From positions 1,258,492-1,322,491 of the forward strand of contig NZ_KN150731.1 in the NCBI RefSeq assembly GCF_000754805.1: 64,000 bases of DNA, given 5' to 3'. Shown here piece after piece: positions 17,122-33,268 of this stretch. The position numbers were made by a program, and so were the translations under genes. Source of the DNA: Yersinia frederiksenii ATCC 33641 (GTDB taxonomy: Bacteria; Pseudomonadota; Gammaproteobacteria; Enterobacterales; Enterobacteriaceae). The notes below the pieces were generated by a model that saw only the letters and a list, made by a program, of their open reading frames with translations, made no database searches and was not told the origin of the DNA. Numbering within the stretch: position 1 is the stretch's first letter; each line of letters starts with the position of its first letter.

Positions 17122-17154
17122 CGCTTTTTTCCTAAGATTTTCCCATGTAAAATA

Positions 17155-17170: not shown

Positions 17171-17257
17171 TTATATTGGATGCGAGACAATAATATTTTA
17201 GCTATTTTAGCGGGGAACAGGCGAATAGGCTGTTTTTTTGATGATTTAGTTATATTT

Positions 17258-17304: not shown

Positions 17305-17388
17305 TGTTTAATGTCTTAACTGATTGTTTATACAAATGATTTAGATTTTTTACTGGAGTCGTAAAACGATAAGGATAGCTGTATTGGG

Positions 17389-18111: not shown

Positions 18112-18121
18112 GAGTCAATTT

Positions 18122-18190
18122 TATTACCGTTAGCAATAATATCCAATCACCTGCGGTATTGACTATAAAATCACTTGCGGTAATAATCAA
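18122..18190 (+). promoter_or_regulatory. Repressor operators and PR-like promoter
   Basis: Three related elements: TATTACCGTTAGCAATAATA (18122-18141, carrying an inverted TTATTACCG half-site), and two direct repeats ATCACCTGCGGTATTGA (from 18147) and ATCACTTGCGGTAATAA (from 18170). The TTGACT at 18159-18164 and TAATAA at 18181-18186 form a promoter with 16-bp spacing, directed toward the Q-like gene and overlapped by the last two repeats. Confidence 0.65.
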
Positions 18191-18384
18191 TCAAAATATA
18201 TAAGAGAAACGCATGGAATCGCACCTGCAACACGTACTCTTGGTCGTGTCATCAGCCTTCGTGCCGTGAGTTGCTCTGGTTATCACAAGAAGACGGCAGC
18301 CAGGTGTTTCGGGGCTTCCGTTGCTGAACAATCGATAGGTTGAGGTGTCATCCTGTGGCCCCGCCTTTTGTGGAGTAGCTATAT

Positions 18385-18864: not shown

Positions 18865-18879
18865 TATTACTGGTTGGTT
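18830..18879 (+). repeat. Direct repeat copy A (candidate late promoter)
   Basis: 50-bp sequence overlapping the 3' end of the Q-like gene, repeated at 18984-19033 with two mismatches. It holds TTAACG and TATTAG at 16-bp spacing, and a second -10-like GATATT just downstream where a sigma-dependent pause would be expected. An intrinsic terminator follows 23 bp after it. Confidence 0.7.
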
Positions 18880-18901
18880 TGTTACGCAAGAATAATATTT
18901 T

Positions 18902-18930
18902 AAGACCCCGCTTAGACGGGGTTTTTCTTT
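18902..18930 (+). terminator. Terminator after repeat A
   Basis: ACCCCGCTTAGACGGGGT hairpin followed by TTTTCTTTT. Confidence 0.88.
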
Positions 18931-18983
18931 TCATAATCCCAACGTTTAGAGTTAATAAATAAATTTAAAATTTTAATAAAAAG

Positions 18984-19033
18984 CATTAACGCGGTCCGCA
19001 AAAAATGTATTAGTCTGATATTACTGGTTAGTT
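18984..19033 (+). repeat. Direct repeat copy B (candidate late promoter)
   Basis: Second copy of the 50-bp repeat, 154 bp after copy A. It still encodes, out of context, the last ten residues of the Q-like protein with one substitution and the stop codon, so it is a duplicated gene 3' end rather than chance similarity. It is followed by its own terminator and then the holin gene. Confidence 0.8.
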
Positions 19034-19046
19034 ACATACTGATTAA

Positions 19047-19087
19047 AAACAGGAAAGCCCCACAATGTTGGGGCTTTCCTGTTTCTG
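19047..19087 (+). terminator. Terminator after repeat B
   Basis: Stem of about 16 bp (AAACAGGAAAGCCCCA / TGGGGCTTTCCTGTTT) just upstream of the holin gene. Without antitermination it should block lysis and tail gene transcription. Confidence 0.9.
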
Positions 19088-19127
19088 TTGGCAATACACG
19101 CCAGTGTATCTGAGTAGGAGGTAATAA

Positions 19128-19406
19128 ATGAATGAACAAAGCCAACTGCCCTATTGGTGGACAGGATCACTGGCACTATTTTCAGCTCTGAGCTTACAGG
19201 ATTACATCTTTATTCTCGGTACAGTGATTAGCGTGATATTCACGATTAAAACTTATTACGTCAATTTACATGAGAAGGCCGAAATAATTAAAGAGGAGCA
19301 GCGTCGAACTGAGATATTACGAGATTTTTTACGTAATAAAACAATAGAAAATATTCCGGCTGCCATTGCGGTATGCAATGACGCATTGCACAAGATGGAG
19401 AGCTGA
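19128..19406 (+). CDS. Phage holin
   Basis: 92-aa inner-membrane protein with one strong hydrophobic segment (about residues 27-45, IFILGTVISVIFTIKTYYV) followed by a charged, helical cytoplasmic tail. A strong GTAGGAGGTAATAA ribosome site precedes it. Position right before the endolysin gene identifies it as the holin or pinholin; sequence alone would not. A single membrane segment and a SAR endolysin partner would fit a pinholin-type system. Confidence 0.75.
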   Translation: MNEQSQLPYWWTGSLALFSALSLQDYIFILGTVISVIFTIKTYYVNLHEKAEIIKEEQRRTEILRDFLRNKTIENIPAAIAVCNDALHKMES

Positions 19407-19407
19407 T

Positions 19408-19923
19408 ATGACGCCCACGTTACGTAACAAAGTGTTGGGCGCTGCTGCTGGAGGGGCTATTGCGATTGCTGGTGCATTACTTGGTGGGCATGGCGGCGTC
19501 GAGGGCCGTGAATATCGTGCTTATTATGATGTCGCAGGTGTTCTGACGGTATGTGATGGTCACACTGGCAGCGACATTATTCGCCATAAGCAATATAGCG
19601 ATCAGGAGTGTGATGCACTGCTACAGCAGGACTTACTGCCTATAAAGGCACGGGTTGATCGTGCCGTACAGGTCCCGGTAGGGGATTACACTCGCGCAGC
19701 ACTCTATTCCTTTACCTACAACATCGGGCAGACCGCATTTATCAACTCAACTTTATTAAAGAAATTGAATAGTGGCGATATAGCAGCTGCGTGTGACGAA
19801 TTGCGGCGCTGGATTATGGCGGGTGGTAAACGGTGGCAAGGCTTGATTAATCGGCGCGAGATTGAACGCGAGCTGTGCATGATGCCAGCGCCGGTTGTAA
19901 AGAAAGTCGCGGAGGATAAATGA
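19408..19923 (+). CDS. SAR endolysin (GH24 lysozyme)
   Basis: 171-aa muramidase. Catalytic triad Glu32-Asp41-Thr47 has exactly the T4 lysozyme spacing (E-x8-D-x5-T). The N-terminus (residues 9-27, Gly/Ala-rich and weakly hydrophobic) is a signal-arrest-release anchor like that of phage 21 R, so the enzyme is exported by Sec and freed when the membrane depolarises. The ATG at 19408 follows the holin stop by 1 bp and is preferred to upstream in-frame starts inside holin. Confidence 0.92.
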   Translation: MTPTLRNKVLGAAAGGAIAIAGALLGGHGGVEGREYRAYYDVAGVLTVCDGHTGSDIIRHKQYSDQECDALLQQDLLPIKARVDRAVQVPVGDYTRAALYSFTYNIGQTAFINSTLLKKLNSGDIAAACDELRRWIMAGGKRWQGLINRREIERELCMMPAPVVKKVAEDK

Positions 19924-20249
19924 AGAGGCGAATGATCAGCATGGTGTTGCTGTTGTTCTTGCTACTTGGCCTTACGGCCAATACTTACCGGCTTAGCACC
20001 AGGCAAAAGCAAGAACATGCCCAGTTACAGGCGGAACTGCTGGTGAATCAAACCTTGGGTAACATCATTGATGCCTACCAGTTAAACGACGCAGCCAATC
20101 GAGCGGCTACCCTCCGACAGTTAGAAAGCGAAAGGGCGTTACGACATGAAACAGAGGATCGCCTCAAGCGCTTTGCGGCTGCGGCAGCAACTGACAACTG
20201 TGCTGTTAGTCGCATGCCTGAGTCTGGCATTAGTATCTTGCGCGAATGA
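19920..20249 (+). CDS. Rz-like inner-membrane spanin
   Basis: 109-aa i-spanin: short cytoplasmic tail, one membrane segment (about residues 6-24), then a charged, helical periplasmic stretch. It overlaps the endolysin stop by 4 bp (ATGA) and contains the start of the Rz1-like gene in another frame, the classical nested Rz/Rz1 layout. Presence of spanins means the module retains full Gram-negative lysis, needed to release particles. Confidence 0.85.
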   Translation: MKRRMISMVLLLFLLLGLTANTYRLSTRQKQEHAQLQAELLVNQTLGNIIDAYQLNDAANRAATLRQLESERALRHETEDRLKRFAAAAATDNCAVSRMPESGISILRE

Positions 20250-20445
20250 ACCGCGTGCTCTGTTAGTCAATTCCCCGCAGTTATTGCCGCCAGAGTCGGC
20301 GATGACTGAATGTGAAATTCCACAGTTTACCGGATCAACATGGGGTGACAGCGCCTTATATGCCCTGAACCTCAAACGGGAGTTACTCATCTGCAAAGGG
20401 CGGTTAGATGAAGTCATTCATTGGCGTAATACCCTCCACCCTTGA
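20146..20445 (+). CDS. Rz1-like outer-membrane lipoprotein spanin
   Basis: 99-aa o-spanin with signal sequence and lipobox LVSC (lipidated Cys32), followed by a Pro-containing periplasmic part. It starts inside the Rz-like gene in a different frame and extends about 200 bp past it. Pairing with the Rz-like protein would fuse inner and outer membranes at lysis. Confidence 0.85.
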   Translation: MKQRIASSALRLRQQLTTVLLVACLSLALVSCANEPRALLVNSPQLLPPESAMTECEIPQFTGSTWGDSALYALNLKRELLICKGRLDEVIHWRNTLHP

Positions 20446-20531
20446 GGTATTCGTTCTATTCCATTACTCGCCCTTAGTGGTCGACCGCGTTTATCCCCCT
20501 AACGGGGCAACTATTCATCAGGAGAATAATC

Positions 20532-20582
20532 ATGGCAGGTATTGATGTCGGAATAGGTATTTTTTATCGGGTGAAATCATGA
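20532..20582 (+). CDS. Possible 16-codon leader or gene remnant
   Basis: ATG with a good CAGGAGAATAATC ribosome site opens a 16-codon frame (MAGIDVGIGIFYRVKS) whose TGA overlaps the next ATG (ATGA), so it could couple translation of the tail-terminator gene. It may be the 5' stub of a deleted gene at the point where Mu-like head genes would join. No homology recognised. Confidence 0.35.
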   Translation: MAGIDVGIGIFYRVKS

Positions 20583-21109
20583 ATGCAGCGCAAATCAGGC
20601 AACTGGCAGCCGCAGCGCTAGTCGGGAAAACCGATGCTGAAGATCGGATCTATTCAACTGACGCATGGCCAGTAACCACTTATCCAGCCATTTTGTTACA
20701 GACACCGGAGGAAGTTAAAGAGTCCATTGGCCGTAATGCGCCACAGTTCAAGACCATGACAACCTTGCGAATCAGTGGGCATATCCAACTCAGTGAGGCG
20801 GAAAGTCGGGTCACGGAAGCTGCATCTGCACTGGAGCGTTTGTGTGAGCAAATTCAACGCGCGGTGATTAACAGCTATGAGCTAACCCGACAGATTCAGC
20901 AATTTGCCAAAGTGCGCACCACCATGGGCATCGACACCAGCAGTGAGCAGCACTTTGCTGAAGTTAAAGTGGAGTTGGATCTTGAGTATTACCAAGGGCC
21001 GGAAGATTTCTTCCCGCATGAAACCACCCCATTAGAGGGCATCGACATCACTATTGATATGCCCGATGGTGCCACGGATCCCCTGATCGCCATTACCTTC
21101 CTGGAGTAA
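20579..21109 (+). CDS. Tail terminator, Mu gp37-like (DUF1834)
   Basis: 176-aa protein resembling Mu gp37 (Gp37/Gp68 family), a tail completion/terminator protein that caps the tube and sheath. It is the first of a run colinear with Mu gp37-gp38-L-M-gp41-gp42-N-P-45-46-47-48-S. In Mu the preceding genes encode head and neck proteins; here the lysis cassette sits in their place. The family call is from order and general resemblance. Confidence 0.72.
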   Translation: MNAAQIRQLAAAALVGKTDAEDRIYSTDAWPVTTYPAILLQTPEEVKESIGRNAPQFKTMTTLRISGHIQLSEAESRVTEAASALERLCEQIQRAVINSYELTRQIQQFAKVRTTMGIDTSSEQHFAEVKVELDLEYYQGPEDFFPHETTPLEGIDITIDMPDGATDPLIAITFLE

Positions 21110-21113
21110 CCCT

Positions 21114-21308
21114 ATGTTCGTGAAACCGATGGCCGGTCGCGCGGTGCGTGACCCGGTCAAGGGCACCCTTTTGCCTGAATCCGGCACCGAGGTTCCTGAT
21201 AACACATTTTGGCGTCGTCGAATTCAAGACGGCGATGTGATGCAGATAGCCGCTAAATCAGTGATATCTGCATTTGAAGTATCAACAACGGAGAGTACAA
21301 CACTATGA
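21114..21308 (+). CDS. Mu gp38-like small tail protein (DUF2635)
   Basis: 64-aa protein beginning MFVKPMAGRAVRDPVKG, typical of the DUF2635 family found just before contractile-tail sheath genes. It overlaps the sheath start by 4 bp (ATGA). Function in tail assembly is unknown. Confidence 0.75.
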   Translation: MFVKPMAGRAVRDPVKGTLLPESGTEVPDNTFWRRRIQDGDVMQIAAKSVISAFEVSTTESTTL

Positions 21309-22813
21309 CCATTCCTTTCACTAATATCCCAAGCAATTTACGCACGCCTTTGTTCTTTGCGGAATTTGATAATTCCCAGGCTAATACGGCGAGTACCACC
21401 CAACGGACATTGATTATCGGGCAAGCATTGCCAGAAAGTAGCTTGCCTGCCAATGTGCCATTACTGGTTTCATCAACGGCAACGGTGGCCGGTTTAGCGG
21501 GGGCCGGTTCGATGCTGCATGGGCAAATGGCTGCTTATTTGGCAAACGACACTGCCGGTGAGGTTTATCTTCTGCCGCTGAGTGACACTGATGCCATGGT
21601 GGCCGCTACGGGTAAAATCACCGTCACCACACCAGCCTCGGCGACTGGGGTTATTTCACTGTACATCGGCGGTATTCGGGTACAAACCACCGTGGTTGCG
21701 ACGGATGACGCGAATGCTGTTGCCACCGCACTGGCCGCGGCCATTGAGGGTAAACCCGAATTGCCCGTGACGGTTGTTCATACTGAAAGTGTGGCGGCGG
21801 AAGATGGCATCATTGTCCTGACGGCGAAAAATAAAGGTGCACATGGCAATAATATTGACTTGCGCTTGAACTATTTAGGCAGTGCCGGTGGGGAAGTGAC
21901 GCCAGACAGCTTAGTTCTAACGATTACCCCGATGGCAGGTGGCGCAGGTACTCCTGAGTTGGCTGGTGGATTGGCGAATTTGCAGGATCGCACCTTCGAT
22001 TTCATTATCAATCCTTATACCGATACGACGTCGTTGGATGCTATCAAAGCTTTCCTTTCCGATAGCACCGGGCGTTGGAGCTACAGCCAACAGTTGTATG
22101 GGCACAGTTTTGCCGCACAATCGGGCACTTATGGCCAACTGACCGCTGCCGGAGAGCTACGTAATGACCAGCATGCTTCACTGCTGGGTATGCATAACTC
22201 ACCGACTCCGGCTTACATCTGGTCAGCAGCTTATGTGGGGGCAATCGCTCAGAGTCTACGCAATGATCCCGGTCGTCCACTGCAAACGCTGACTGTCAGT
22301 GGGGTGTTAGCACCGCCGTTGTCTAGCCGTTTCACACTGACGGAACGTAATAACCTGCTGCACAGCGGTATTTCCACCGTGACCGTGGCGGATGACGGTA
22401 CGGTTCAAGTGGAAAATATCATCACGACCTATCAGACCAATAAATACGGTGCTGAAGATGATAGTTACCTACAAATCGAAACCTTGTTCTTGTTGATGTT
22501 TGTCACCCGCTACCTGCGTACACAAGTGACGTCCAAGTTTGCTCGGATGAAGTTAGCTGCAGATGGCACCCGTTTCGCTGCCGGTTCGGCGATTATTACT
22601 CCAAATGTTATTCGTGCTGAGTTGATTGCCCAGTATCAGACTTTGGAATTTAACGGCTATGTGCAGGATGCCAAAGGCTTCGCCCGTGGGCTGATTGTTG
22701 AGAAGAACGCCAGCAACCCAAATCGCGTCGATGTGCTGTGGACAGGGGTGCTGATTAATCAGCTACGTATCTTTGCGGTACTCAATCAATTCCGTCTGCA
22801 AGCGGCTGTTTAA
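21305..22813 (+). CDS. Contractile tail sheath protein (Mu gpL-like)
   Basis: 502-aa sheath subunit, the surest sign of a contractile tail. It is close to Mu gpL in length (495 aa) and in N-terminal sequence (PSNLRTPLFFAEFDNSQANT) and in the GKITVTTPASATGVISLYIGG-like central region. Many copies would form the sheath whose contraction drives the tube through the target envelope. It is followed by tube and chaperone genes in Mu order. Confidence 0.93.
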   Translation: MTIPFTNIPSNLRTPLFFAEFDNSQANTASTTQRTLIIGQALPESSLPANVPLLVSSTATVAGLAGAGSMLHGQMAAYLANDTAGEVYLLPLSDTDAMVAATGKITVTTPASATGVISLYIGGIRVQTTVVATDDANAVATALAAAIEGKPELPVTVVHTESVAAEDGIIVLTAKNKGAHGNNIDLRLNYLGSAGGEVTPDSLVLTITPMAGGAGTPELAGGLANLQDRTFDFIINPYTDTTSLDAIKAFLSDSTGRWSYSQQLYGHSFAAQSGTYGQLTAAGELRNDQHASLLGMHNSPTPAYIWSAAYVGAIAQSLRNDPGRPLQTLTVSGVLAPPLSSRFTLTERNNLLHSGISTVTVADDGTVQVENIITTYQTNKYGAEDDSYLQIETLFLLMFVTRYLRTQVTSKFARMKLAADGTRFAAGSAIITPNVIRAELIAQYQTLEFNGYVQDAKGFARGLIVEKNASNPNRVDVLWTGVLINQLRIFAVLNQFRLQAAV

Positions 22814-22847
22814 CTCTTAACTTTTTAAAAATAAAAGGAAATAAATT

Positions 22848-23216
22848 ATGAGCGATTCTTCAAACCGCCTGGCGGGCACTGCTTATGTCACTGTTGATGG
22901 CATTACTATCATGGTCGCTGGCCAGTTCAAATACAGCCCGTCAAAAGTCAAACGTGAAACCGTAATGGGGATGGACGGTATTCACGGCTATAAAGAAACC
23001 GTGGTTGCACCGTCAATTTCTTGCACCATCCGCGATAGTGGCGGTGTTTCCATCAGTGACTTCAATGACCAAACCAACGTCAATATCGTGTGTGAATTGG
23101 CAAATGGCAAAACCATTATCGGTAGCGGTATGTGGTCAGTGAGTACTTTGGTGGTGGACAGTACCGAGGGCACGGTTGATGTCAGTTGGGAAGGCGGTTC
23201 GGTGACGGAGAACTGA
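22848..23216 (+). CDS. Tail tube protein (Mu gpM-like)
   Basis: 122-aa inner-tube subunit, directly downstream of the sheath gene with an AAAAGGAAATAAATT ribosome site. Features such as GTAYVTVDG, a KRETVMGMDGIHGYKE segment and the C-terminal beta-rich part fit the Mu M / tube family (about 118 aa). Confidence 0.88.
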   Translation: MSDSSNRLAGTAYVTVDGITIMVAGQFKYSPSKVKRETVMGMDGIHGYKETVVAPSISCTIRDSGGVSISDFNDQTNVNIVCELANGKTIIGSGMWSVSTLVVDSTEGTVDVSWEGGSVTEN

Positions 23217-23217
23217 T

Positions 23218-23517
23218 ATGGCTGAATTGGAGCGCAGTAAAACCATTTCGCTGGTTAAACCCATTTCGCATGAGGCGACCAAGACCACTTATGAGGTGAT
23301 CGAACTTTGCGAGCCAACTCTATTGCAAGTGCAGCAATTTTACGATGAGCAAACCAAGACCGGCTCGCTTAGCGGCATGGGATTGCTGATCGCATTAGTG
23401 TCTGGGGTGCCGCGTGAGGCCATCAAAAAAATGGCTTTCACCGACTACAAAACTTGCGAGGTCTACATGATGGGTTTTTTAGCCTACTCCCCAATGGGGG
23501 ACGATGGCGCGAAATAG
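23218..23517 (+). CDS. Tail assembly chaperone (Mu gp41-like), unshifted form
   Basis: 99-aa chaperone analogous to lambda gpG, P2 gpE and Mu gp41. It starts 1 bp after the tube gene stop. Near its end it carries a slippery run, GGGGG at 23496-23500, where a -1 shift would join the overlapping downstream frame. Such chaperones bind the tape measure during tail assembly and are absent from the mature particle. Confidence 0.8.
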   Translation: MAELERSKTISLVKPISHEATKTTYEVIELCEPTLLQVQQFYDEQTKTGSLSGMGLLIALVSGVPREAIKKMAFTDYKTCEVYMMGFLAYSPMGDDGAK

Positions 23518-23645
23518 TCGCTGACGTCACTTACTACTATAGCTGGGGGCCAGGCGATGCCTGGTCCCTGACCTACAGCAAATTAATGTGGTGGTGCCAG
23601 CAGGCCGAGCGGATTAATAAAATTAAGGCTGGCAAAAATGGCTAA
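23454..23645 (+). CDS. Frameshift extension of the tail assembly chaperone
   Basis: The -1 frame opens upstream of the gp41-like stop and runs to 23645, 8 bp into the tape measure gene. A -1 slip at GGG (23497-23499) gives a 142-aa fusion ending WWCQQAERINKIKAGKNG, the Trp/Gln-rich tail typical of P2 gpE'-like chaperones. An internal ATG at 23454 exists but has no good ribosome site, so the frame is more likely reached by frameshifting, as in most long-tailed phages. Confidence 0.65.
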   Translation: MRGLHDGFFSLLPNGGRWREIVADVTYYYSWGPGDAWSLTYSKLMWWCQQAERINKIKAGKNG

Positions 23646-25233
23646 TAAATTTGATTTTGAATTAACCACTAATGCTCAGATAACTGAGTCAGTTAAGCGT
23701 ATGAATAAGGCAGTAAAAGAATTAGTGCCTCAATTTTATGAGCTACGTAAAAGTGTCGTGGCGGTTGAACAGGTCATTCCTCTACCAATTAAGGAGATCG
23801 AAAAACGTCTTGAAAAATATAATAAGAGTGTAAAAAGCAATGCTGTTAGTGCAGGTTTAGAGAGCCAAGAAGATAAAACCTCAGATAGAGTGAAAAGTAT
23901 TTATAAATTAACTAGACGAGCTAATCTTATTTATACAGCCAGCGCTGAGGTTGCCAGTGGATTAAATAGAGCGGCTGAGCAGGCCCATACTGTAAATACA
24001 GCAGCTCGAAATGTCAGTGCGCCTATTAGCCAATTTAGCCAGGTTAGTGGTGCTATGCGCATTCGCAGTGCTGAGGAAAATGCTTCAATCAAATCGACTG
24101 AGCAACTCTATAGTAAGTTGAATGATATGCTTTGGGGGCATAATGAGCAGGGGTTAGCTCAGCTACGTAACTTCGGTTTTGATATTATCAGTAATAAAAA
24201 TGGCACAGCGGACGTTCCTGCAACTATGGTTAACATTGCCAGTGGTTTTTTACAAATGGATCCCAAAGCACAAAGCATACTGATTAGCACTCTTGGCTTG
24301 GACAGTAATGCTATTGAGTTATTACGAGAGGGGGTACGTCTAAAAGACTTACTGGCTAAATCGACTAGATTTGGGTTAATGATTGATCCTGAACTCAATA
24401 CACAGTTAACGGAATTAGACCGCAAAACTAATGAGTTAAGTGTGGCTTGGGATGGGTTGAAAGATAAAGTATCCAATAAATTATATGGCATTCTAGTTTC
24501 CGATGGCTCTATAGCTGATGGTATAGGAGGAGTCACTGATTTGATGACGTACGGTCTAGATAGCTTCGCTATTATGCGAACCCTTGGGGGAATCAGTGGC
24601 GAAGAATCCGATAAAATGCGTTCGGCATATAATGATGCGGATTTTTATCGACAGCTAAATCGATATGAAAAAGAAATGCTTAAGCTTGGTTTGATGACTG
24701 ATGGTTTTCGCAAAAAGTACCAAGGTTATTCTGAGTTCAAAAGTGCCGAGCCATTAGTCTACAAAGAAGTTATTACAAATGCTATTCCTGGACTTACATC
24801 ATCTCCACCTGAACCTAATCCATTGACGGATATATTTAATCTGGGGAACAAATCTAATTCTGATAACAATACATTTGATCTGGAAACTGAAAATACTTGG
24901 AATAATAACCGAGTCCGTGATCTTACAGTATCGGATCCTTACTCCCTTGAACCATCAATTACTATTTCACCCGATGGTAACTTAGTCACTAGCTCTGAAA
25001 ATATATCACCCAACGACAATATCGTCAGCAACACTGCCAATATATCGCCTATTTATTCTGAGTCGGTGAGCGGCTTTAATGCCGGTGATATTACCGATGT
25101 TATTGCGACTGCTATGCAAAATAACCGAGTGCAGATCGAACTGACATTAATCGACAGCCGAACCGGGGAATCTTCAGTGTTATTGGGGCAGGGGGGCGGG
25201 CGGATTAGCTACGCCATGGCCATGCCAATGTAA
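23638..25233 (+). CDS. Tail tape measure protein
   Basis: 531-aa protein in the tape measure position. It is largely helical, with conserved-looking tape-measure pieces (QFSQVSGAMRIRSAEENASIKS, split here as QFSQVSGAM and RSAEENASIKS; KAQSILISTLGLDSNAIELL) and a C-terminal LTLIDSRTGESSVLL segment. Most of it is visibly AT-richer than neighbouring tail genes, which suggests exchange. It is short for a contractile phage; at the usual 0.15 nm per residue it would set a tail of roughly 80 nm (inference). It overlaps the frameshift frame by 8 bp. Confidence 0.8.
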   Translation: MANKFDFELTTNAQITESVKRMNKAVKELVPQFYELRKSVVAVEQVIPLPIKEIEKRLEKYNKSVKSNAVSAGLESQEDKTSDRVKSIYKLTRRANLIYTASAEVASGLNRAAEQAHTVNTAARNVSAPISQFSQVSGAMRIRSAEENASIKSTEQLYSKLNDMLWGHNEQGLAQLRNFGFDIISNKNGTADVPATMVNIASGFLQMDPKAQSILISTLGLDSNAIELLREGVRLKDLLAKSTRFGLMIDPELNTQLTELDRKTNELSVAWDGLKDKVSNKLYGILVSDGSIADGIGGVTDLMTYGLDSFAIMRTLGGISGEESDKMRSAYNDADFYRQLNRYEKEMLKLGLMTDGFRKKYQGYSEFKSAEPLVYKEVITNAIPGLTSSPPEPNPLTDIFNLGNKSNSDNNTFDLETENTWNNNRVRDLTVSDPYSLEPSITISPDGNLVTSSENISPNDNIVSNTANISPIYSESVSGFNAGDITDVIATAMQNNRVQIELTLIDSRTGESSVLLGQGGGRISYAMAMPM

Positions 25234-25262
25234 TTGCGTGAATTATGTCATTTCGACTCTAT

Positions 25263-25292
25263 AAAAACCCGCTTCGGCGGGTTTTTAACTTT
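25263..25292 (+). terminator. Intrinsic terminator inside the tail operon
   Basis: Perfect 10-bp stem AAAAACCCGC / GCGGGTTTTT with a UUCG tetraloop, between the tape measure and gpN-like genes. A near-ideal terminator within a late operon is expected to be passed only by Q-modified polymerase, or to lower expression of the baseplate genes. Confidence 0.9.
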
Positions 25293-25323
25293 CTATCGTA
25301 AGAATCCTAAACAGGAGAATGCC

Positions 25324-26724
25324 ATGTCACTCATCGGCAATACCTTATCAGCGCTATTAGGCGGCGGTGACAACAGTTGGCAATGGTCGGAACATCTGCA
25401 TCAAGCTTCATTTCGTGGTGTTCCTTTTGTCATTGATAAAAGCACTGGCACCTTTGGCCGCCGTCAGGCAGTACACAGCTACCCTTATCGTGATATCAGT
25501 TATATCGAGGATCTGGGGCGCAATGCCAGAAGTATGACTCTGGACGGTTTTCTGGTGCAAAACAGCCAGATTTATACCGCACCAGATGTAATGACTCAGC
25601 GTGACTCATTGATCGCCGCCTGTGAAATGCCGGGGTCAGGAACCTTAGTGCACCCGACTCTTGGTGAAATGACAGTCAGTGTGAGTGAATTGAAAATTAA
25701 TGAAAGTACCGCCGGTGGGCGGATATTTTCATTCACCTTAACGGCGCATGAATCTGGTTTACGTGCCTTTGCCATCACCGGTGCGACTGAAATGAGTGCA
25801 TCAATTCAATCTTCCTGGCTAGGTTTGAGTGCAAAAGCTGTCGCGGGTTTTATCGCTACAGTGAAAGGGGAAATGCGCTCTACGACTCAGGCGCTAAAAA
25901 CACTGAAAAGCACGGCGGCGTTTTGGGCGCGCATGGTCACGAATACCGCCAATGAAGCCAGTAATCTGGGGAATGCACTGCGCTCAACTTTTGGTCGCAA
26001 GCGCTATGGCCGCTACAACCACGGCACGGTAGGCGGCAGCAGTTCGGGGGCCACAGAGGTCGTCAATCTGGAAAGTGATACTACAGATCTGGCACTTTTG
26101 GTGTCGCAGCGGTTGGCATTAACAGTTGAGGGGCGAGCGGCTGTCGATACAGCGGTAAATGAACTGCTCGAGGTAAACAGCATTGATGCTCATGCCGACA
26201 AGATGTTGGCGCTGGTCAATACACTGCAAAGTAGCGGCGTCAGTATCTTAGATGTTATTCGCATGATGGAAAATCTGGCGATAACTCAAGACGATATATT
26301 TCGTGCCAATGATAACGATGTCGCGGTTGCTGACGCCAGCCAGCATTTAATGACGACATTATGCACGGGCGCCATGGTCCATGCCGCGTCGCAATATCAG
26401 CCGGAAAGTTATGATGATGCTATCGATATTTTAGCGCGAGTGTGTGGGGTCATCGACAGCAGAGCTCTGGCTGCCGCCGACAGTGGCAATGATGAAACCT
26501 ATGGTGCATTGATGCTGATGCGGGAATCTATTGTGCTGAAATTACAGCAAGCTGGCGCAAATTTATCGCGTGTTGGTGAGGTGAATTTTAGCCGCTCACA
26601 ACCCGCCTTAATGTTGGCAAATCGTCTGTATCAGGATGCCTCGCGCACCGATGCCTTGGTGAAAATGGCCAACCCGGTTCACCCGGCATTTATGCCGATC
26701 CGCTTTAAGGCATTGAACTTATGA
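25324..26724 (+). CDS. Mu gpN-like baseplate protein (DNA circularisation N-terminal domain)
   Basis: 466-aa baseplate-hub component with the DNA_circ_N domain at the N-terminus (HQASFRGVPFVIDKS, GRRQAVHSYPYRD, EDLGRNARSMTLDGFLV). In Mu, gpN with gpP forms the hub around the tube tip; the 'circularisation' name is historical. The ATG at 25324 with AGGAGAATGCC is chosen; the frame stays open upstream through the terminator, which is not coding. It overlaps the next gene by 4 bp (ATGA). Confidence 0.85.
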   Translation: MSLIGNTLSALLGGGDNSWQWSEHLHQASFRGVPFVIDKSTGTFGRRQAVHSYPYRDISYIEDLGRNARSMTLDGFLVQNSQIYTAPDVMTQRDSLIAACEMPGSGTLVHPTLGEMTVSVSELKINESTAGGRIFSFTLTAHESGLRAFAITGATEMSASIQSSWLGLSAKAVAGFIATVKGEMRSTTQALKTLKSTAAFWARMVTNTANEASNLGNALRSTFGRKRYGRYNHGTVGGSSSGATEVVNLESDTTDLALLVSQRLALTVEGRAAVDTAVNELLEVNSIDAHADKMLALVNTLQSSGVSILDVIRMMENLAITQDDIFRANDNDVAVADASQHLMTTLCTGAMVHAASQYQPESYDDAIDILARVCGVIDSRALAAADSGNDETYGALMLMRESIVLKLQQAGANLSRVGEVNFSRSQPALMLANRLYQDASRTDALVKMANPVHPAFMPIRFKALNL

Positions 26725-27791
26725 GTGATAAACGAATAAACGATGATCTAACACTCGAGGTGGGCGGCCGGGCAATCACCGGCTGGAGTAAAATTCAGGT
26801 TACCCGAGGCATTGAAAAGTTACCCAGCAGCTTTGAGCTGTCATTGATGGACCGCTATCCCGGCAGTGAAGGGCAGCAATGGATAAATCCCGGTGATCCC
26901 TGTGTGGTTAAACTGGGTAATGATGCCGTCTTGACTGGCTATATCGACAGTTGGGATAGCACCATCACAGCCACCCGCCGCGAGGTTACAGCTAAAGGAC
27001 GCAGCAAATGCCAAGATTTGGTGGATTGCTCCGCTGAATGGCCCAATAGCGTAATCAGTCAGTCTACGGTATTGCAAATTGCACAAAAACTGGCCGAGCC
27101 ATATGGCATTAAGGTGACATCAGACATTAACGACATGGTCGTGGTGCCGAAATTCACCCTTAACTGGGGGGAAACCGCACAGGCGGTTATTGAGCACGTC
27201 ACCCGCTGGGCAGCACTGCTCTATTACGACCAACCCGATGGCAACTTATACCTCACAAGGGTTGGCACGCGCCAAGCTGCCAGCGGCGTGGAGCAGGGAG
27301 TCAATATCTTGAGTGCCAATCTGCATACGGATATCAATCAGCGTTTTATTGACTATACCGGTGTCGCCCTTTCCAGCAATACAGTCGCTCGCCGTTCTGC
27401 TCCGGGCGGCAATAATACCTCGGTTCTGGTGAAAATTCAGGATACGCAACTGGCTGAACAATTTCCGGCTCGCCACCGAAACAAGATAATTATCGTCGAA
27501 AATACCCTTAACTCACCAAACTTAGTCAGGAACAGCCTTGATTGGAGCATGAATCGTAATAATGGTCGTTCCAAAGCCCTCAAGGTACAAGTTGATAACT
27601 GGCGTGATCGCGAACAGCAGCTATGGCAAACCAACTCGTTGATTCCTATCGCTATCCCGTCCTTGGGGCTGAAAGATGAATTGTGGCTGCTATCGGAGGT
27701 GGTTTATCAGAAAGATGCCAGCGGAACGGTGGCGACCATGACGCTGATGCCTCCTGAGGCCTTCGCAGTTCAAACCTATAAAATTAAATGA
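26721..27791 (+). CDS. Baseplate hub protein (Mu gpP / phage late control D family)
   Basis: 356-aa hub protein homologous to Mu gp44(P) and P2 gpD, the T4 gp27-like ring linking tube and spike. Motifs: VGGRAITGWSKIQVTRGIE at the start, GYIDSWDSTI, and the RSKCQDLVDCSAEWP region. It overlaps gpN-like by 4 bp and precedes the spike gene by 13 bp. Confidence 0.87.
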   Translation: MSDKRINDDLTLEVGGRAITGWSKIQVTRGIEKLPSSFELSLMDRYPGSEGQQWINPGDPCVVKLGNDAVLTGYIDSWDSTITATRREVTAKGRSKCQDLVDCSAEWPNSVISQSTVLQIAQKLAEPYGIKVTSDINDMVVVPKFTLNWGETAQAVIEHVTRWAALLYYDQPDGNLYLTRVGTRQAASGVEQGVNILSANLHTDINQRFIDYTGVALSSNTVARRSAPGGNNTSVLVKIQDTQLAEQFPARHRNKIIIVENTLNSPNLVRNSLDWSMNRNNGRSKALKVQVDNWRDREQQLWQTNSLIPIAIPSLGLKDELWLLSEVVYQKDASGTVATMTLMPPEAFAVQTYKIK

Positions 27792-27804
27792 AACCGGGGG
27801 TTAT

Positions 27805-28401
27805 ATGCACGACGTAAGTGGGCAAATCTCAACCTTGTACCGGCAGATAAAAATGCTACTGGGGCTCGGGCGGGCAACAGCTTTCGATGACAGTGACGGG
27901 GTACAAACCGTGCAATATCAGACATCGTTGGAAGTTCACAGCGACACGCCACGGTTAGCTGAGTTTGGTTTTTCGTCAGGATTACCGGCGGGCAGTGATG
28001 TGGTGATAGGGTTTCTGGGGGGTGATCGCTCCAGCGGCATGATCATTGCATCTAACCATCCGTCTTTTCGCCATAAAGAATTAAATCCAGGGGAAACAGT
28101 GATTTACTCCCAATGGGGGCAATTTATCAAATTGACCGAAAGTGGGGTGATCATTGAGGCCAATAACCAGCCAGTGACGGTAAATACTGCCACCGAGGTG
28201 ACCGTCAATGCATCGGTAAAAGTACGGTTAAACACCCCGCTACTGGAGGTCAGCGGCGATATTATGGATAACGCCGACAGCAATGCGACGACGCTAAAAA
28301 CCTTACGTGATACCTACAACAGTCACAATCATCAACTCAAAAATGTACAGTCGGGTAGTGCAACACTCACCAGTGAGACACCCGCTAAGGTGGTGCAATG
28401 A
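27805..28401 (+). CDS. Baseplate assembly/spike protein (Mu gp45, P2 gpV-like)
   Basis: 198-aa central spike protein: an OB-fold-like N-terminal part, then a repetitive beta region (GVIIEANNQPVTVNTATEVTV, ASVKVRLNTPLLEVSGDI) typical of the membrane-piercing needle, ending in an HNHQ segment close to the C-terminus that could contribute metal ligands at the tip. It overlaps the next gene by 4 bp. Confidence 0.87.
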   Translation: MHDVSGQISTLYRQIKMLLGLGRATAFDDSDGVQTVQYQTSLEVHSDTPRLAEFGFSSGLPAGSDVVIGFLGGDRSSGMIIASNHPSFRHKELNPGETVIYSQWGQFIKLTESGVIIEANNQPVTVNTATEVTVNASVKVRLNTPLLEVSGDIMDNADSNATTLKTLRDTYNSHNHQLKNVQSGSATLTSETPAKVVQ

Positions 28402-28835
28402 CAACAGATATTAAAACAGTTTGGGATGTCGATGCTTCGCTGGGGGATTGGCGGACAGGCGGTGGTGGGTTGCTGGATGGTGATGATCTGCATACTGCCA
28501 TTTTGTTGAGTCTATTCACTGACCGTCTGGCCCGCGCTGATGACGATATCGATGGTGATGATCGTCGGGGTTGGTGGGGGGACAGTGGTGCGACATCGGC
28601 TATTGGCTCACGGCTTTGGCTATTGCGGCGGCAAAAGTTGACCACTCAAGTTGCTATTAAAGCTGAAGATTATGCGCGGGAAGCATTGGTCTGGCTGATG
28701 GAGGATGCCGTTGTCACCACTATTAGCACTCAGGCGAAAATCATCTTCCCGAATACATTATTGCTGGTTATTGCTTATCAGCAACCGGGTAAAACTCAAT
28801 CATCCGTTAAATTTTCATGGGTATGGGAGGAGTAA
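28398..28835 (+). CDS. Mu gp46-like baseplate protein
   Basis: 145-aa protein of the GP46 family (T4 gp25-like wedge position). Signature start TVWDVDASLGDW and the ALVWLMEDAV segment. It overlaps the spike gene (ATGA) and precedes gp47-like by 3 bp. Confidence 0.83.
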   Translation: MTTDIKTVWDVDASLGDWRTGGGGLLDGDDLHTAILLSLFTDRLARADDDIDGDDRRGWWGDSGATSAIGSRLWLLRRQKLTTQVAIKAEDYAREALVWLMEDAVVTTISTQAKIIFPNTLLLVIAYQQPGKTQSSVKFSWVWEE

Positions 28836-28838
28836 TTC

Positions 28839-29975
28839 ATGCCATTTAATCGACCCACATTAAGCGAGTTGCGCCAGCGAAATCAGTCCTATATCCAGTC
28901 TGAACTGAAAACCGGTGGCAATTTATTGCGTTTCTCTAACATTGGTGTGATCAGTGACGCGGATGCTGGGATGGCTCATCTGCATTACGGCTATCTTGAT
29001 TATATTGCCCGACAAGCGACACCTTATAATGCCAGCGATGAATACCTTGCGGCTTGGGCGGCACTGAAAGATGTATTTCGCAAAGCCGCCAATCCGGCCC
29101 GCTGTGCAGATGTGCGTTTCAGTGGCATTGTCGGGCAGGTTATTCCTGCTGGCCGACGGCTGAATCGGGCTGATGGTTATCAGTACTTGCTGGACAATAC
29201 AGTAATAATCGGCACCGATGGCAGCGCAATCGGTGAAATTACGGCTATTTTACCCAGCCCGTTGGACGATGCAACTGGCGGAGGAAATCGAGGTAACAGT
29301 GCGCCAGGAACCCTACTGACGCTGGATATCGCCATTGATGGTGTGCAGGCTACGGCCACGGCATTGAGCAAAATTACCGGAGGAGCCGATATTGAATCCG
29401 AAGATGCATTTCGCTCTCGCATGTTATTGGCTTACCAAAATATCCCGCAAGGAGGTAATGATACTGACTATCAATCTTGGGCGTTGTCAGTGCCAGGTGT
29501 TACCCGATGTTGGGTTAAACGGCGCTTGATGGGGGCCGGTACTGTCGGCATCTATATCATGTGTGATGATAATGATTATGCGGGTTTCCCACAGGGCAGT
29601 GATGGGATTTCATCTCTTGAAGAGTGGGGAGCGGTGAAAGCCAGCGGTGACCAACGGCGAGTAGCGGATGCGATTTATCCGCAGCAACCGATTATCGCGT
29701 TGGTTTATGTTTGTGCCCCTGTCGCACAACCCATTGATTTTGTTATTAGTGGTATATCTCATGCCGACAGCGCAACCACCGCGGCCATTAATGCGGCCAT
29801 CGACGAGGTATTTTTCACCGAAGGAGAACCTGGTGGAAAAATTCTATGGTCATCGCTGCTGCTGGCCATCGGCGAGGTCGCCGGCACCGGGGGCTTTATT
29901 ATGCAATCTCCGGCAGCCAATATTGAGCTGCAAACCGGTAAACTCCCCATCAGGGGTACAGTGAGCTACTTATGA
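28839..29975 (+). CDS. Baseplate protein J-like (Mu gp47)
   Basis: 378-aa wedge protein of the Baseplate_J family. Motifs: FNRPTLSELRQRNQSYIQSEL, the HYGYLDYIARQATPYNA segment, and SEDAFRSRMLLAYQNIPQGG. It overlaps the next gene by 4 bp. Together with the gp46- and gp48-like proteins it would form the wedge that triggers sheath contraction. Confidence 0.9.
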   Translation: MPFNRPTLSELRQRNQSYIQSELKTGGNLLRFSNIGVISDADAGMAHLHYGYLDYIARQATPYNASDEYLAAWAALKDVFRKAANPARCADVRFSGIVGQVIPAGRRLNRADGYQYLLDNTVIIGTDGSAIGEITAILPSPLDDATGGGNRGNSAPGTLLTLDIAIDGVQATATALSKITGGADIESEDAFRSRMLLAYQNIPQGGNDTDYQSWALSVPGVTRCWVKRRLMGAGTVGIYIMCDDNDYAGFPQGSDGISSLEEWGAVKASGDQRRVADAIYPQQPIIALVYVCAPVAQPIDFVISGISHADSATTAAINAAIDEVFFTEGEPGGKILWSSLLLAIGEVAGTGGFIMQSPAANIELQTGKLPIRGTVSYL

Positions 29976-30568
29976 GCCGCTATTCTGTCAGTGAATATAC
30001 TGAAGCTTTACAGGCGCTAATGCCAATAGGTTTGGTCTGGCCACGACGGCCTGACGGAGTACAAACCGAAGTTCTACGGGCATTGGCTCATGCTTATCGG
30101 CGCAGTGATGAAGAAGCTCAAGACTTATTGTCTGGCGCTTTTCCGGCAACCGCCACGTCAATGCTACCGGAGTGGGAAGCAACACTCGGGTTACCGGATT
30201 TGTGTGCTATTGGTGAAGTCGACAGCATGATCCAGCGCCAACGCGCGGTGGTGTCGAAGTTATTTGGTATTGGTGGGCAGTCCGCAGCTTATTTTATCCG
30301 GGTAGCAAAGGCGCTAGGTTACTCCATTACGGTGACCCAATACCGACAAGCTTGCGCAGGTATGGCGGTCTGTCGAGATGCCTTGAATGGTGAAGAATGG
30401 CCATTTACCTGGTTAATTACCGCCCCGAAAACCACCATTCATTACGCCCAAAGTGGCTTAACCTATTGCAGTGACCCATTACGTTCATGGGGTAATAAAC
30501 AACTTGAGTGCAGATTAGCAGTATTAAATCCGTCTCATACGATTTTGAAATTCGGCTACGTTAGTTAA
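29972..30568 (+). CDS. Mu gp48-like baseplate protein (DUF2313/YmfQ)
   Basis: 198-aa protein of the DUF2313 family (Mu gp48, E. coli prophage YmfQ): YTEALQALMPIGLVWPRRPDG at the start, an EWEATLGLPD motif, and the CRDALNGEEW and CRLAVLNPSHT parts. It links the baseplate to the tail fibre, whose gene follows after 49 bp. Confidence 0.87.
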   Translation: MSRYSVSEYTEALQALMPIGLVWPRRPDGVQTEVLRALAHAYRRSDEEAQDLLSGAFPATATSMLPEWEATLGLPDLCAIGEVDSMIQRQRAVVSKLFGIGGQSAAYFIRVAKALGYSITVTQYRQACAGMAVCRDALNGEEWPFTWLITAPKTTIHYAQSGLTYCSDPLRSWGNKQLECRLAVLNPSHTILKFGYVS

Positions 30569-30617
30569 CTAATCCCTGTTATTCATTTTTAAGTGCCTTA
30601 ACTGGCGAGGATTTTCT

Positions 30618-31679
30618 ATGCAAAAAATTGGCGATATTCCTAATACACGCGCCGACAATAACGGCGAATTTACTGACGGCAATGTTGCCGCCGGTGTTCC
30701 ACCAACGATATTACCAGCTGAATGGTTTAATACCCTACAGCGGGAATTAATTAAAGTCGTTCAAGAAGGAGGATTAACATTAGATCCCAATGACGATACC
30801 CAGATATTAGCTGCCCTGAATAAACTGTTTTTACAGTCGGGTAATAACCTATCCGAGATAAAAGCCGCCGGCCCAACAGCCGTTGCAGCGGCTCTCGCAA
30901 ACCTTGGTTTGGGCGATGCCGCACATTTACCGCAATTGACCGGCGTGGTGGGTACCTCACGTAATGCTCGAATGAGTGTCACCGCCGCCTCAGCAACAGC
31001 CACATTTACCGCCGATGAATTGATTGTTCAGACAGCATTGGGAGGGTGTCAATACAAATTAAGTAGCTTCAATAAATCAGTTAATCTTGCCATAACCGGT
31101 GCTGGTGGGATGGACACTGGCACGGTGCCGGTAGCCGGATTTGTGGCTCTGTATGCGATTTATAACCCGACAACTCAAGCATCAGCATTACTTGCAGTGA
31201 ATGTCACGTTAATCACCGCCCCAGAGATTTACGGCGGTGCTAATATGCCAGCTGGTTATACAGCATCGGCGCTTGTTTCTGTGTGGGCGACAAACGGTAG
31301 TGGACAATTTATTCCTGGCTTTTTGACGGGTAGAAATTTAATTTTTATGGCTAATGCAGTTATTACGTCATCCTCAATTCCTGCAACCATCACTGCACTC
31401 TCGCTTGCCACAGCAATCCCGTTAAATGCTGTAGACGTCAGGGCTTCAGTCCGATTTACATCTATAACTGGGACTGGGGCCGCAGGGTATGTAGTTGCAT
31501 CTGATGCACAAGAAATTTGTAGGTCTGCTTCAGGTGCTTACGCTTCAAGTTCAGTGATTCCTGAAGCAACACCATTTTCGTTGGGTATCATTACCAAGCA
31601 AATGTGTTATCACCGCATCTCTCTTTCAGGGGTAACCGGATATACATATGTTTTATATATAACGGGGTATTCAATATGA
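30618..31679 (+). CDS. Tail fibre, currently expressed form (constant N-terminus + variable arm 1)
   Basis: 353-aa receptor-binding fibre. Residues 1-101 (MQKIGDIPNTRADNNGEFTDG start) form the constant, baseplate-attached part; the left inversion site lies in codons 94-101 (ANLGLGDAA). The C-terminal 250 residues lie inside the invertible segment and would carry host specificity. Inversion would replace them in frame with the arm now encoded at 32153-32647, giving a predicted 249-aa fibre. Its stop overlaps the next small gene (ATGA). Confidence 0.88.
   Translation: MQKIGDIPNTRADNNGEFTDGNVAAGVPPTILPAEWFNTLQRELIKVVQEGGLTLDPNDDTQILAALNKLFLQSGNNLSEIKAAGPTAVAAALANLGLGDAAHLPQLTGVVGTSRNARMSVTAASATATFTADELIVQTALGGCQYKLSSFNKSVNLAITGAGGMDTGTVPVAGFVALYAIYNPTTQASALLAVNVTLITAPEIYGGANMPAGYTASALVSVWATNGSGQFIPGFLTGRNLIFMANAVITSSSIPATITALSLATAIPLNAVDVRASVRFTSITGTGAAGYVVASDAQEICRSASGAYASSSVIPEATPFSLGIITKQMCYHRISLSGVTGYTYVLYITGYSI
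30898..30922 (+). repeat. Left inversion site (gix/hix-like)
   Basis: 25-bp inverted repeat partner of 32598-32622. The core AAACC-TT-GGTTT (30899-30910) is the canonical Hin/Gin/Cin crossover architecture. The flanking GGGCGATGCCGC is also shared, so identity reaches beyond the usual half-sites and preserves the NLGLGDAA codons. Confidence 0.92.
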
Positions 31680-31861
31680 TATATGTACAATTTCTTGAAG
31701 AAGAAAAGTTAACGATTATCAGCTGGTTCGCTGGACCACAAAACCCTGATGATTACCCTTACTTTGATACTATCACCACAGATGATCCCAAGTGGATTGC
31801 TTATTATGACTCACAAGATGAAGTGGTGAAGGAAATTTTGCCTAAGCCAATATATCCATAA
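31676..31861 (+). CDS. Small fibre-associated protein, arm 1
   Basis: 61-aa protein starting MIYVQFLEEEKLT, overlapping the fibre stop (ATGA). Position corresponds to Mu U, a fibre assembly protein. The DPKWIAYYDSQ motif near its C-terminus is shared with a frame on the opposite strand (DPRWKVFYDMM), so the two arms carry related partner genes. Role as fibre chaperone is inferred. Confidence 0.6.
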   Translation: MIYVQFLEEEKLTIISWFAGPQNPDDYPYFDTITTDDPKWIAYYDSQDEVVKEILPKPIYP

Positions 31862-31867
31862 GTGTAT

Positions 31868-31897
31868 ACCGGGCTTAATTGCCCGGTTTGTATTTGC
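31868..31897 (+). terminator. Hairpin between the two fibre arms
   Basis: ACCGGGC / GCCCGGT stem with a 6-nt loop then TTTGTATTT, just after the arm 1 small gene; it probably ends the late transcript before it runs antisense into arm 2. Confidence 0.7.
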
Positions 31898-32144
31898 TAC
31901 ACAGGTTCAGTCATCCCTGGAACGGATGGCTTCATCATGTCATAAAAAACTTTCCACCGTGGATCGCTGACCTCTACCTCTCCAAGGTTTATTACTCCAT
32001 TTCTGTCTCAGTATTTACCTCTGCCTCAATTTCTAAATGTGCCTTAATTTCAGGCTCAGTTGCTTCTCTTGCCCCTTCTATTTTGTCTCCTGTGTAAATA
32101 AACCCGTCGTTATTGATATAAAATTTAATTTTAATGTTTTCCAT
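31897..32144 (-). pseudogene. Small fibre-associated gene, arm 2, apparently frameshifted
   Basis: An ATG at 32144 with an AGGTGA ribosome site opens a 50-aa frame (MENIKIKFYINNDG start) that stops at 31992-31994. From about there another frame continues without its own start to a stop at 31897-31899 and encodes GEVEVSDPRWKVFYDMM, the part matching the arm 1 partner's C-terminus (DPKWIAYYDSQ). One coding sequence broken by a small indel explains this best; no clear slippery heptamer was seen. Confidence 0.55.
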
Positions 32145-32152
32145 AATTTCAC

Positions 32153-32647
32153 CTAATACCAGACTCTGAATATATAGTGCCAGTTACTCACGGCGGAGTT
32201 AGTTATCAATTCCCCAGTAGTTCTATTTATAAATTCAATGCCTGAAATCCCACTGGCGGGGGCTGGGGTAAATAATCGAATATCTGTTAATGAGATACTA
32301 GGGACAACCGAAAGCGTGTGATATGCAACAGCATTGATCGTAAATGATGCCGAAAGTGCCGTTTCTCCAACTGCATACCCATCACCAGCAATCGCACGTT
32401 TTAAGACGACATCACATTTACATCGCAACAGATCTAACCCAGTTACCCCGTGGGTAACTATGGTTACAGTGTTATTAACTGGTGTGTATTCGTTTGATAC
32501 CCAAAGTCGGGTATTTGGAGCATCAACTTTCATATAGCGGGTATCACCAATAGAAATATCAGGAACATTTGTGCTTCCCGTTCCTATGGTCCTTTTAGCG
32601 GCATCGCCCAAACCAAGGTTTGTTATCCCGCATTCTTTCAAAGCCAT
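32153..32647 (-). CDS. Alternative tail fibre C-terminal arm 2 (silent orientation)
   Basis: 164-aa frame on the minus strand. Residues 10-17 (NLGLGDAA) are encoded by the right inversion site in the same reading frame as the left one; the following 147 residues form a different receptor-binding domain (start KRTIGTGSTNV, end HYIFRVWY). In the present orientation it lacks the baseplate-attachment N-terminus, though an ATG with an AGGA site (at 32647) could allow translation of the isolated arm. After inversion it would be joined to the constant fibre N-terminus. Confidence 0.82.
   Translation of the reverse strand: MALKECGITNLGLGDAAKRTIGTGSTNVPDISIGDTRYMKVDAPNTRLWVSNEYTPVNNTVTIVTHGVTGLDLLRCKCDVVLKRAIAGDGYAVGETALSASFTINAVAYHTLSVVPSISLTDIRLFTPAPASGISGIEFINRTTGELITNSAVSNWHYIFRVWY
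32598..32622 (-). repeat. Right inversion site (gix/hix-like)
   Basis: Inverted partner of 30898-30922, identical over 25 bp; the core AAACC-AA-GGTTT is at 32610-32621. It lies between fibre arm 2 and the invertase gene. Confidence 0.92.
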
Positions 32648-32701
32648 TTTTCCTATAGATTCCTTGTGACAAATTTCGGCTATTTCACAAGGGGAAATAA
32701 G

Positions 32702-33268
32702 GTGCTTATTGGCTATATTAGGGTGTCAACAAATGACCAAAACACAGAGTTGCAACGCAACGCGCTGGTTAGTGCGAATTGTGAGCAGATATTTGAAGAT
32801 AAAATAAGCGGAAAATCATCAGATCGACCGGGTTTAAAACGAGCCATGCGTACAATGTCCGAGGGAGATACTCTAGTTGTGTGGAAACTCGATCGGCTGG
32901 GGCGTAGTGTTCGCCACCTGATTGCTCTGATTGAAGAGCTGAAAAAACGCGGGGTACATTTTCGCAGCCTGACTGATAGCATCGATACTGGTACAGCAAT
33001 GGGCCGATTTTTCTTTCATGTTATGTCGGCACTAGCTGAAATGGAACGTGAATTGATAGTGGAGCGGACCCTTGCCGGATTAGCGGCTGCGAGAGCAGAA
33101 GGACGAATAGGGGGTCGCCGCCGAATAATGACCCCTGAAGTTGTCGAGCGAGCTAAACGTATGTTTACCAACGGGGCAAGTTTACATCAGGTTGCTTTGG
33201 TCATCGATGTCTCACCTAAAACTATCTACAAATACATTTCGGCTGAAGAGCGCCGTAAATTAATATAA
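32702..33268 (+). CDS. Serine DNA invertase (Gin/Hin/Pin family)
   Basis: 188-aa site-specific recombinase very close to Mu Gin. Catalytic Ser9 in IRVSTNDQ, then FEDKISGKSSDRPGLKRA, VVWKLDRLGRS, the FRSLTDSIDTGTAMGRFFFH region, and a C-terminal HTH (VALVIDVSPKTIYKYI). The GTG at 32702 is chosen because the family starts (M/V)LIGY there, with a GGGGAAATAAG leader; the upstream ATG adds non-family residues. It should invert the adjacent fibre segment with Fis bound to an internal enhancer. Confidence 0.94.
   Translation: MLIGYIRVSTNDQNTELQRNALVSANCEQIFEDKISGKSSDRPGLKRAMRTMSEGDTLVVWKLDRLGRSVRHLIALIEELKKRGVHFRSLTDSIDTGTAMGRFFFHVMSALAEMERELIVERTLAGLAAARAEGRIGGRRRIMTPEVVERAKRMFTNGASLHQVALVIDVSPKTIYKYISAEERRKLI

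Follow-up and report, generated by a model that had tools for sequence, protein, structure and literature searches.

Can one tail particle be given more than one fiber tip, and with it more than one kind of target? The question is raised by a tail locus of Yersinia frederiksenii ATCC 33641, studied here in a window of 64,000 nucleotides (the whole stretch analyzed, from contig NZ_KN150731.1; positions below are counted from its first letter), where a fiber gene that begins at 30618 is followed by a second tip in the opposite orientation and by a gene for a Gin-type serine DNA invertase. An initial annotation had described a Mu-G-type phase-variable fiber in a headless locus. Our analysis supports the in-frame switch and the headless locus, and the overall reading in part; the population of killing particles with two receptor specificities that the annotation also proposed is a prediction. 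We consider it very probable that an inversion switch allows a single predicted tailocin, a headless contractile tail particle of Mu type, to carry either of two fiber tips.

The segment is bounded by a left site at 30898-30922 (plus strand) and a right site at 32598-32622 (minus strand), which form, as had been claimed, a 25-bp inverted repeat and are 100% complementary. In 200 dinucleotide-preserving shuffles of positions 30618-33268, the longest perfect inverted repeat averaged 10.7 bp and reached 15 bp at most. The gix/hix-type core noted in the initial annotation is present in both arms as AAACC-TT-GGTTT, a dyad with a matching central dinucleotide; the two Mu gix sites compared have AAACC-TC-GGTTT. 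Both arms lie in frame within a stretch encoding NLGLGDAA, and the claim of equal codon phase is correct (30898 minus 30618 is 280 and 32647 minus 32622 is 25, both 1 mod 3), with the central TT falling within codon 96, which is CTT in either copy. The core by itself is not rare, as the 4.94-Mb genome has 15 occurrences of the bare pattern AAACCNNGGTTT versus 6 of a reversed control pattern; in-frame 25-bp sites, on the other hand, exceed chance expectation.

What these sites would join can be read from the fiber gene. Its constant N-terminal part, codons 1-96 (30618-30905, plus strand), is connected in this assembly to tip A (30906-31679, plus strand), the ON tip, in an open frame of 353 amino acids (aa) with tail fiber matches in PHROGs. 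Behind tip A is a small partner open reading frame (ORF) of 61 aa (31676-31861, plus strand), chaperone-like by position and matching phrog_20339, of unknown function. On the minus strand lies tip B, silent or OFF (32153-32614, in an ORF that extends to 32647), with a partner ORF of 50 aa (31992-32144, minus strand) that is 72-82% identical in the related loci L034 and L038. One constant part thus faces two convergent alternative tips, and the frame is preserved across both sites, as expected of a Mu-G-type arrangement. The ATG at 32647 might be taken for a start of the silent tip's own, since a stretch like a ribosome-binding site precedes it, yet we treat it as incidental because locus L070 has a stop codon immediately after it and L063 has the ATG out of frame (frames read by eye).

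Inversion had been predicted to yield a fiber of 249 aa, and that product is a recorded public protein. Returned by a protein search with silent tip B, P0002 has 249 aa, of which the first 102 are those of the window fiber, its constant part included, and the last 155 those of the silent ORF, with the octapeptide NLGLGDAA common to both; the position of the TT in codon 96 fits this junction. The P0002 cluster has five member sequences on two contigs, the longest of 7,216 bases, whose source is undisclosed. Other records hold the A form (P0007, with one difference, and P0008, with 10) and the silent form of B (P0001, with six). BLASTP detected no similarity between tips A and B (best match 13 bits, E 3.1). 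The two would bind different receptors. The A form, modeled with AlphaFold2 at a mean pLDDT of 84.3, has helices to residue 95, low confidence at residues 101-108 and then a beta-rich tip; with the crossover in codon 96, the switch would sit at a domain joint of the fiber, and in the model the inversion joint coincides with the domain border. The P0002 model is weak (65.7), yet the greater part of its tip, starting at residue 131, scores above 80. Fold searches were uninformative, with weak matches for the A form (unrelated toxins, capsids and one Bdellovibrio fiber, most TM-scores being close to 0.2) and no match at E <= 0.001 for the B form.

The enzyme that would turn the segment is encoded just beyond the right site (32702-33268, plus strand). 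Its start, a GTG at 32702 that aligns with the start of Gin, is 79 bp after the right arm, where the initial annotation gave 80 bp; a longer frame in the ORF listing begins at 32666. The product aligns to the Gin structure 4m6f over 181 residues (2.8e-77), is 67.6% identical to Mu Gin over 182 residues and matches the Pfam families Resolvase (6.9e-49) and HTH_7. A resolvase-type catalytic domain and a helix-turn-helix close to those of Gin, beside two inverted dyad sites, are what is expected of a Gin/Hin-type invertase. The serine at position 9, aligned to Gin, is presumably the catalytic serine; a second Gin chain, 3uj3, has alanine there.

A candidate enhancer lies inside this gene, with predicted Fis sites at 32724-32738 and 32772-32786 (both plus strand), 48 bp apart. 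Scored by a Fis consensus and spacing, the top Fis-like pair of 15-mers begins at gene position 23, with the same 48-bp spacing, in 11 of 11 invertase genes, Mu gin included. Its score was equaled in 3 of 300 shuffles for the window and in 1 to 34 of 300 for the other ten genes, and the 11 pairs are not 11 separate tests because the genes are related. The published enhancer is a 65-bp element with one Fis site per end, about 100 bp from one hix site (PMC3798978). In the mechanism that we propose, the predicted Gin-family invertase would bind both 25-bp sites with the assistance of the predicted Fis-bound enhancer, and strand exchange at the central TT would reverse the 1.7-kb segment, joining the constant part either to tip A and its partner ORF (353 aa, as in this assembly) or to tip B and its own partner (249 aa). 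Catalysis would fall to the window invertase, and the change would be reversible inside one culture.

The layout matches the Mu record, and the Mu G-segment logic invoked in the initial annotation is upheld for the in-frame switch. Like the window, Mu has a fiber gene, an assembly gene, an opposed second pair and an invertase, with the same core half-sites. It differs in being a complete phage, in its longer constant part and in its full-size assembly genes U and U', in contrast to the window's ORFs of 50-61 aa.

Has such a segment ever turned? In close relatives both orientations are on record as DNA. The best 80 of 219 relatives in an IMG/VR invertase scan represent 79 distinct loci, which with six added records make 85; among these 85 records are eight pairs in which an inverted block adjoins a collinear flank, in four record groups. 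One group is a prophage present both in L034 (a 4,603,534-base contig with a fiber annotated as Y. mollaretii) and in L063 (IMG/VR), which by gene order we read as P2-like, matching a Peduoviridae phage. The two records have collinear blocks of 4,683 and 3,761 bp at 99.95% identity; the site-to-site stretch of 2,093 bp runs in opposite directions in the two, at 99.90%. The invertase of this prophage is 95.7% identical to the window's, and its switching tip is 77% identical to tip B. Two letters set its sites apart, which allows the crossover to be mapped to within the 5 bp TTGGT, the central TT included; one site is off the core at two letters, and the prophage is nonetheless on record in both orientations. 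The same Y. mollaretii segment (L034 4666-6758, L063 7006-9098) has a third core after its B unit (L034 6112, L063 7641) with a seeming further tip behind it, and may switch among three tips.

A second group consists of the phages vB_YenM_201.16 and vB_YenM_56.17 (L126 and L127), in which 1,431 bp are inverted at 99.86% identity between flanks that are 98.4% and 96.7% identical. Their invertase is 91% identical to the window's and their sites have the same core; unlike the window locus, they are plaque-forming temperate phages with other tips. The expectation that Yersinia relatives would hold both orientations is borne out in DNA by these two systems, while the window locus itself is found flipped only as protein; taken together, the records point to inversion of the segment. 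Could the inverted forms be wrong joins made at the repeat during assembly? Assemblers can be misled by inverted repeats, and P0002 comes from short contigs. However, 25-bp repeats are shorter than ordinary reads, and the exact flip recurs at the same core in several separate systems, including two phage genome records whose flanks differ by 2-3%, and we give an artefact almost no credence.

The same two phages have published host ranges. By our count of Table 3 in PMC9224151, 8 of 50 Y. enterocolitica strains separate the two: five are lysed by 56.17 only and three by 201.16 only; one of these three is a lysogen of 56.17, where immunity may act. The authors note that the fiber C-termini diverge; their main text nowhere uses the terms invertase, inversion or inverted. 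We regard the host ranges as a parallel, not as proof, because the phages differ elsewhere too and lysates may be mixed.

Several observations weigh against the proposed switch. The flipped state of the window locus was not found as DNA: two viral-contig scans with both fibers returned no flipped copy, and it is on record only as P0002, on contigs of undisclosed source. The sole other DNA record of the locus, IMG/VR 638341239, matches it at 100% over 4,430 bp in an unchanged orientation. The initial annotation had named an intact invertase next to mutated sites as a finding that would tell against a switch; of the 15 scan loci that have an invertase of at least 86% identity and at least 3 kb upstream of it, 12 have at least two cores, and three (L146, L155 and L156) have one. 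Finally, clusters that lack a nearby invertase may also have an exact core at the fiber joint: it is present in 8 of 14 such representatives for which at least 4 kb of downstream sequence was available, in a count of 42 distinct N-termini in 33 clusters that took clusters with an NL[GD]L joint and one member from each.

Some of this would suit a relic, a segment that once flipped, yielding P0002 and today's state, and is now frozen in this strain with tip B as a silent archive. Both DNA records of the window locus have the same orientation, and decayed switches exist in relatives, where pieces of the invertase persist in L037, L094 and L095. In the window, however, the invertase frame is intact and 97% identical to that of L070, the sites are identical over 25 bp and the enhancer motif is retained; a relic is quite unlikely in our judgment, and a switch that still exchanges the two tips remains the reading we prefer.

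Decay in these relatives takes different forms. The invertase of L037 (4103-5358, genome G016) is present as two overlapping pieces in different frames, and a fiber-like ORF beside them begins near a site core, at a distance from every tail locus in the records compared. In L094 (5464-10143) and L095, a related tail locus has a broken baseplate gene, only the last half of an invertase and an intact left core, as in a decaying switch.

What particle would the fiber serve? From 16879 to 33268, the locus begins with a DinI-like gene (16879-17190; Pfam DinI 1.8e-20) and a CI-type repressor with an S24 peptidase domain (17389-18111; Pfam Peptidase_S24 3.9e-27, HTH_3), both on the minus strand. On the plus strand follow a Q-type antiterminator (18385-18864; Pfam Phage_antitermQ 8.3e-51), lysis genes with PHROGs matches to holin, endolysin and Rz-like spanin (19128-20445, where we read the small ORF at 20146-20445 as Rz1-like) and, by PHROGs and Pfam, contractile tail and Mu-type baseplate genes (21305-30568) for sheath, tube, chaperone, tape measure and the gp43 to gp48 types; fiber, inversion segment and invertase complete the order. 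No head, portal or terminase gene was found among the profiled ORFs between repressor and fiber, in agreement with the headless locus of the initial annotation, and the only match of the ORF at 20579-21109 is a PHROG of unknown function. The Mu major head family PF10124 is absent from the genome and from three records, which says little because headed relatives have another head family. Contractile tail, lysis and regulatory genes, with no head or packaging genes, are the gene content of an R-type tailocin, and by its anatomy the locus is predicted to be one, of the enterocoliticin type. The S24 repressor beside a DinI-like gene suggests SOS control, and the particle would be made and would kill.

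Enterocoliticin of Y. enterocolitica 29930 is an R-type tailocin with the published order CI, Q, Mu-type tail genes and fiber and with no head genes (PMC13030884). The likeness rests on this published gene order, and the text of PMC13030884 does not mention an invertase or inversion; it cites phage-tail-like bacteriocins in Y. frederiksenii and others, not the window locus.

Among 25 Yersinia genomes, the window's own included, gp48 has a match in 18, nine of them at 89% or above; apart from the window's, the other eight of these nine have the same RpiR-type gene after the fiber locus and no invertase in the locus. An invertase of at least 85% identity is present in 5 of the 25, one of them broken (G016). 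The window locus has named records from Y. alsatica, Y. vastinensis, Y. pekkanenii and Y. similis, and a scan of genome contigs gave eight loci, with no second switch among them. IMG/VR supplied two further headless switch loci. L070 has flanks 91% identical in DNA, a repressor 100% identical and the same gene order from DinI to tube; L152 has a gp48 93% and an invertase 92% identical, with the RpiR gene directly after the invertase, and its repressor is 11.8 kb upstream of the fiber (12.5 kb in the window), a distance too short to accommodate head genes as well. Two loci first suggested to be tailocins by their related gp47 and gp48, in G021 (L035) and G009 (L036), are now treated as headed prophages, G021 because terminase, portal, protease and major head genes lie upstream and G009 because its ORFs follow one another in the order seen in G021, with equal or almost equal lengths. 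The window's genome has a second fiber on a 41.7-kb replicon (L052 6516-7739), with an A-type tip 55% identical and adjoining baseplate genes; integrase and exonuclease genes are nearby, making this a phage-like replicon in the same cell.

Where, then, did the two tips come from? A-type tips occur without an invertase in the orthologous loci of G002 and G008 and in the silent arm of L070 and L152, so that tips of one kind are ON in certain loci, the window's among them, and OFF in others. The three headless switch loci have differing tip pairs. Part of L038, a contig with a Y. alsatica fiber annotation and a P2-like appearance, matches the B unit at 80.5% identity over 642 bp. The unit ends in AAACGTTGGTTT in both L034 and L038, just past the stop codon of the small ORF; there, after the small ORF of silent tip B, the window has a third, broken core, AAACCTTGGAGA (31979-31990, minus strand), which runs directly into the remnant of an older small partner ORF (31869-31990, minus strand; 81% identity over 125 columns to L070 1517-1640) that is still intact in L070. 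Because of this junction, the B unit appears to have taken the place of an older silent tip, with its far end at a site core; the three copies compared share one descent, and the comparison is no more than suggestive. As a separate observation, L151 (2471-5564) has an A-type tip between two oppositely directed invertase copies, a real double switch or an assembly artefact.

If tips are replaced in this way, the invertase might serve mainly for rare tip uptake or replacement, flipping being without a role. The resemblance of the B unit to a P2-like prophage fiber, the remnant left by the older tip and the different tip pairs of the three headless loci are what such exchange would leave. Replacement does not explain, however, why an otherwise identical segment occurs in both orientations in at least two related systems, and we give exchange in place of phase variation very little weight. 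Beside phase variation, it is possible, if rather doubtful, that the inversion sites double as docking ends of a mobile tip unit (tip and partner ORF, with a core on each side), which the invertase, working on true and quasi sites alike, would carry over from P2-like phages to the tailocin's silent arm. If true, one enzyme would both restock and flip aiming parts across phages and tailocins.

In a DNA tree, the window and L070 invertases group with those of P2-like phages (96/95), apart from L035 and L036. An approximately unbiased (AU) test did not reject a tree holding these four together (p 0.066), so the grouping is not firm, and the test does not settle the origin of the window invertase because L035 and L036 were wrongly labeled as tailocins. 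A 2.7-kb cassette that includes an invertase is shared at 99.6% by two headed prophages with different tails (L035 3159-5867 and L103 7235-9943). Selection for the site where the invertase is absent was considered and is not supported by synonymous codon identity, which is 0.573 at the joint versus 0.545 in the rest of the N-terminus for the 14 invertase-free representatives and 0.612 versus 0.524 when all 27 representatives that have an NL[GD]L joint are taken.

Phase-variable tailocin fibers are already known, and the window is a further case, of Mu-G type and Gin-operated. For carotovoricin Er of Pectobacterium, a change in killing upon inversion was demonstrated (Nguyen et al. 2001, as cited in PMC13195805, PMC13280938 and PMC12090994), and the invertase gene ein is reported in 172 of 365 Pectobacterium clusters (PMC13195805). 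That system is likewise a headless tailocin in which an invertase beside the fiber genes changes the tip on a constant N-terminal part; it belongs to another genus and another tail, and the change in killing was shown there, whereas the window switch is known from sequence. We found no report of a Gin-operated tailocin fiber switch in Yersinia in the open-access literature, a scope that leaves out most subscription papers. New here are the Yersinia case, a silent tip and an invertase closest to those of P2-like phages, and a silent-tip unit that ends in site-like cores on both sides.

These results place a probable reversible aiming switch in an enterocoliticin-type tail locus of Yersinia, supply the exact recorded product of its flipped state and link its silent tip and invertase to P2-like phages. 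They also suggest a simple possible reason why two almost identical Yersinia phages have different published host ranges, and they make directly testable whether particles with two killing ranges arise from a single clone. With the flipped fiber on record, it is likely that the bacterium alternates the set of rivals that its tail particles would kill.

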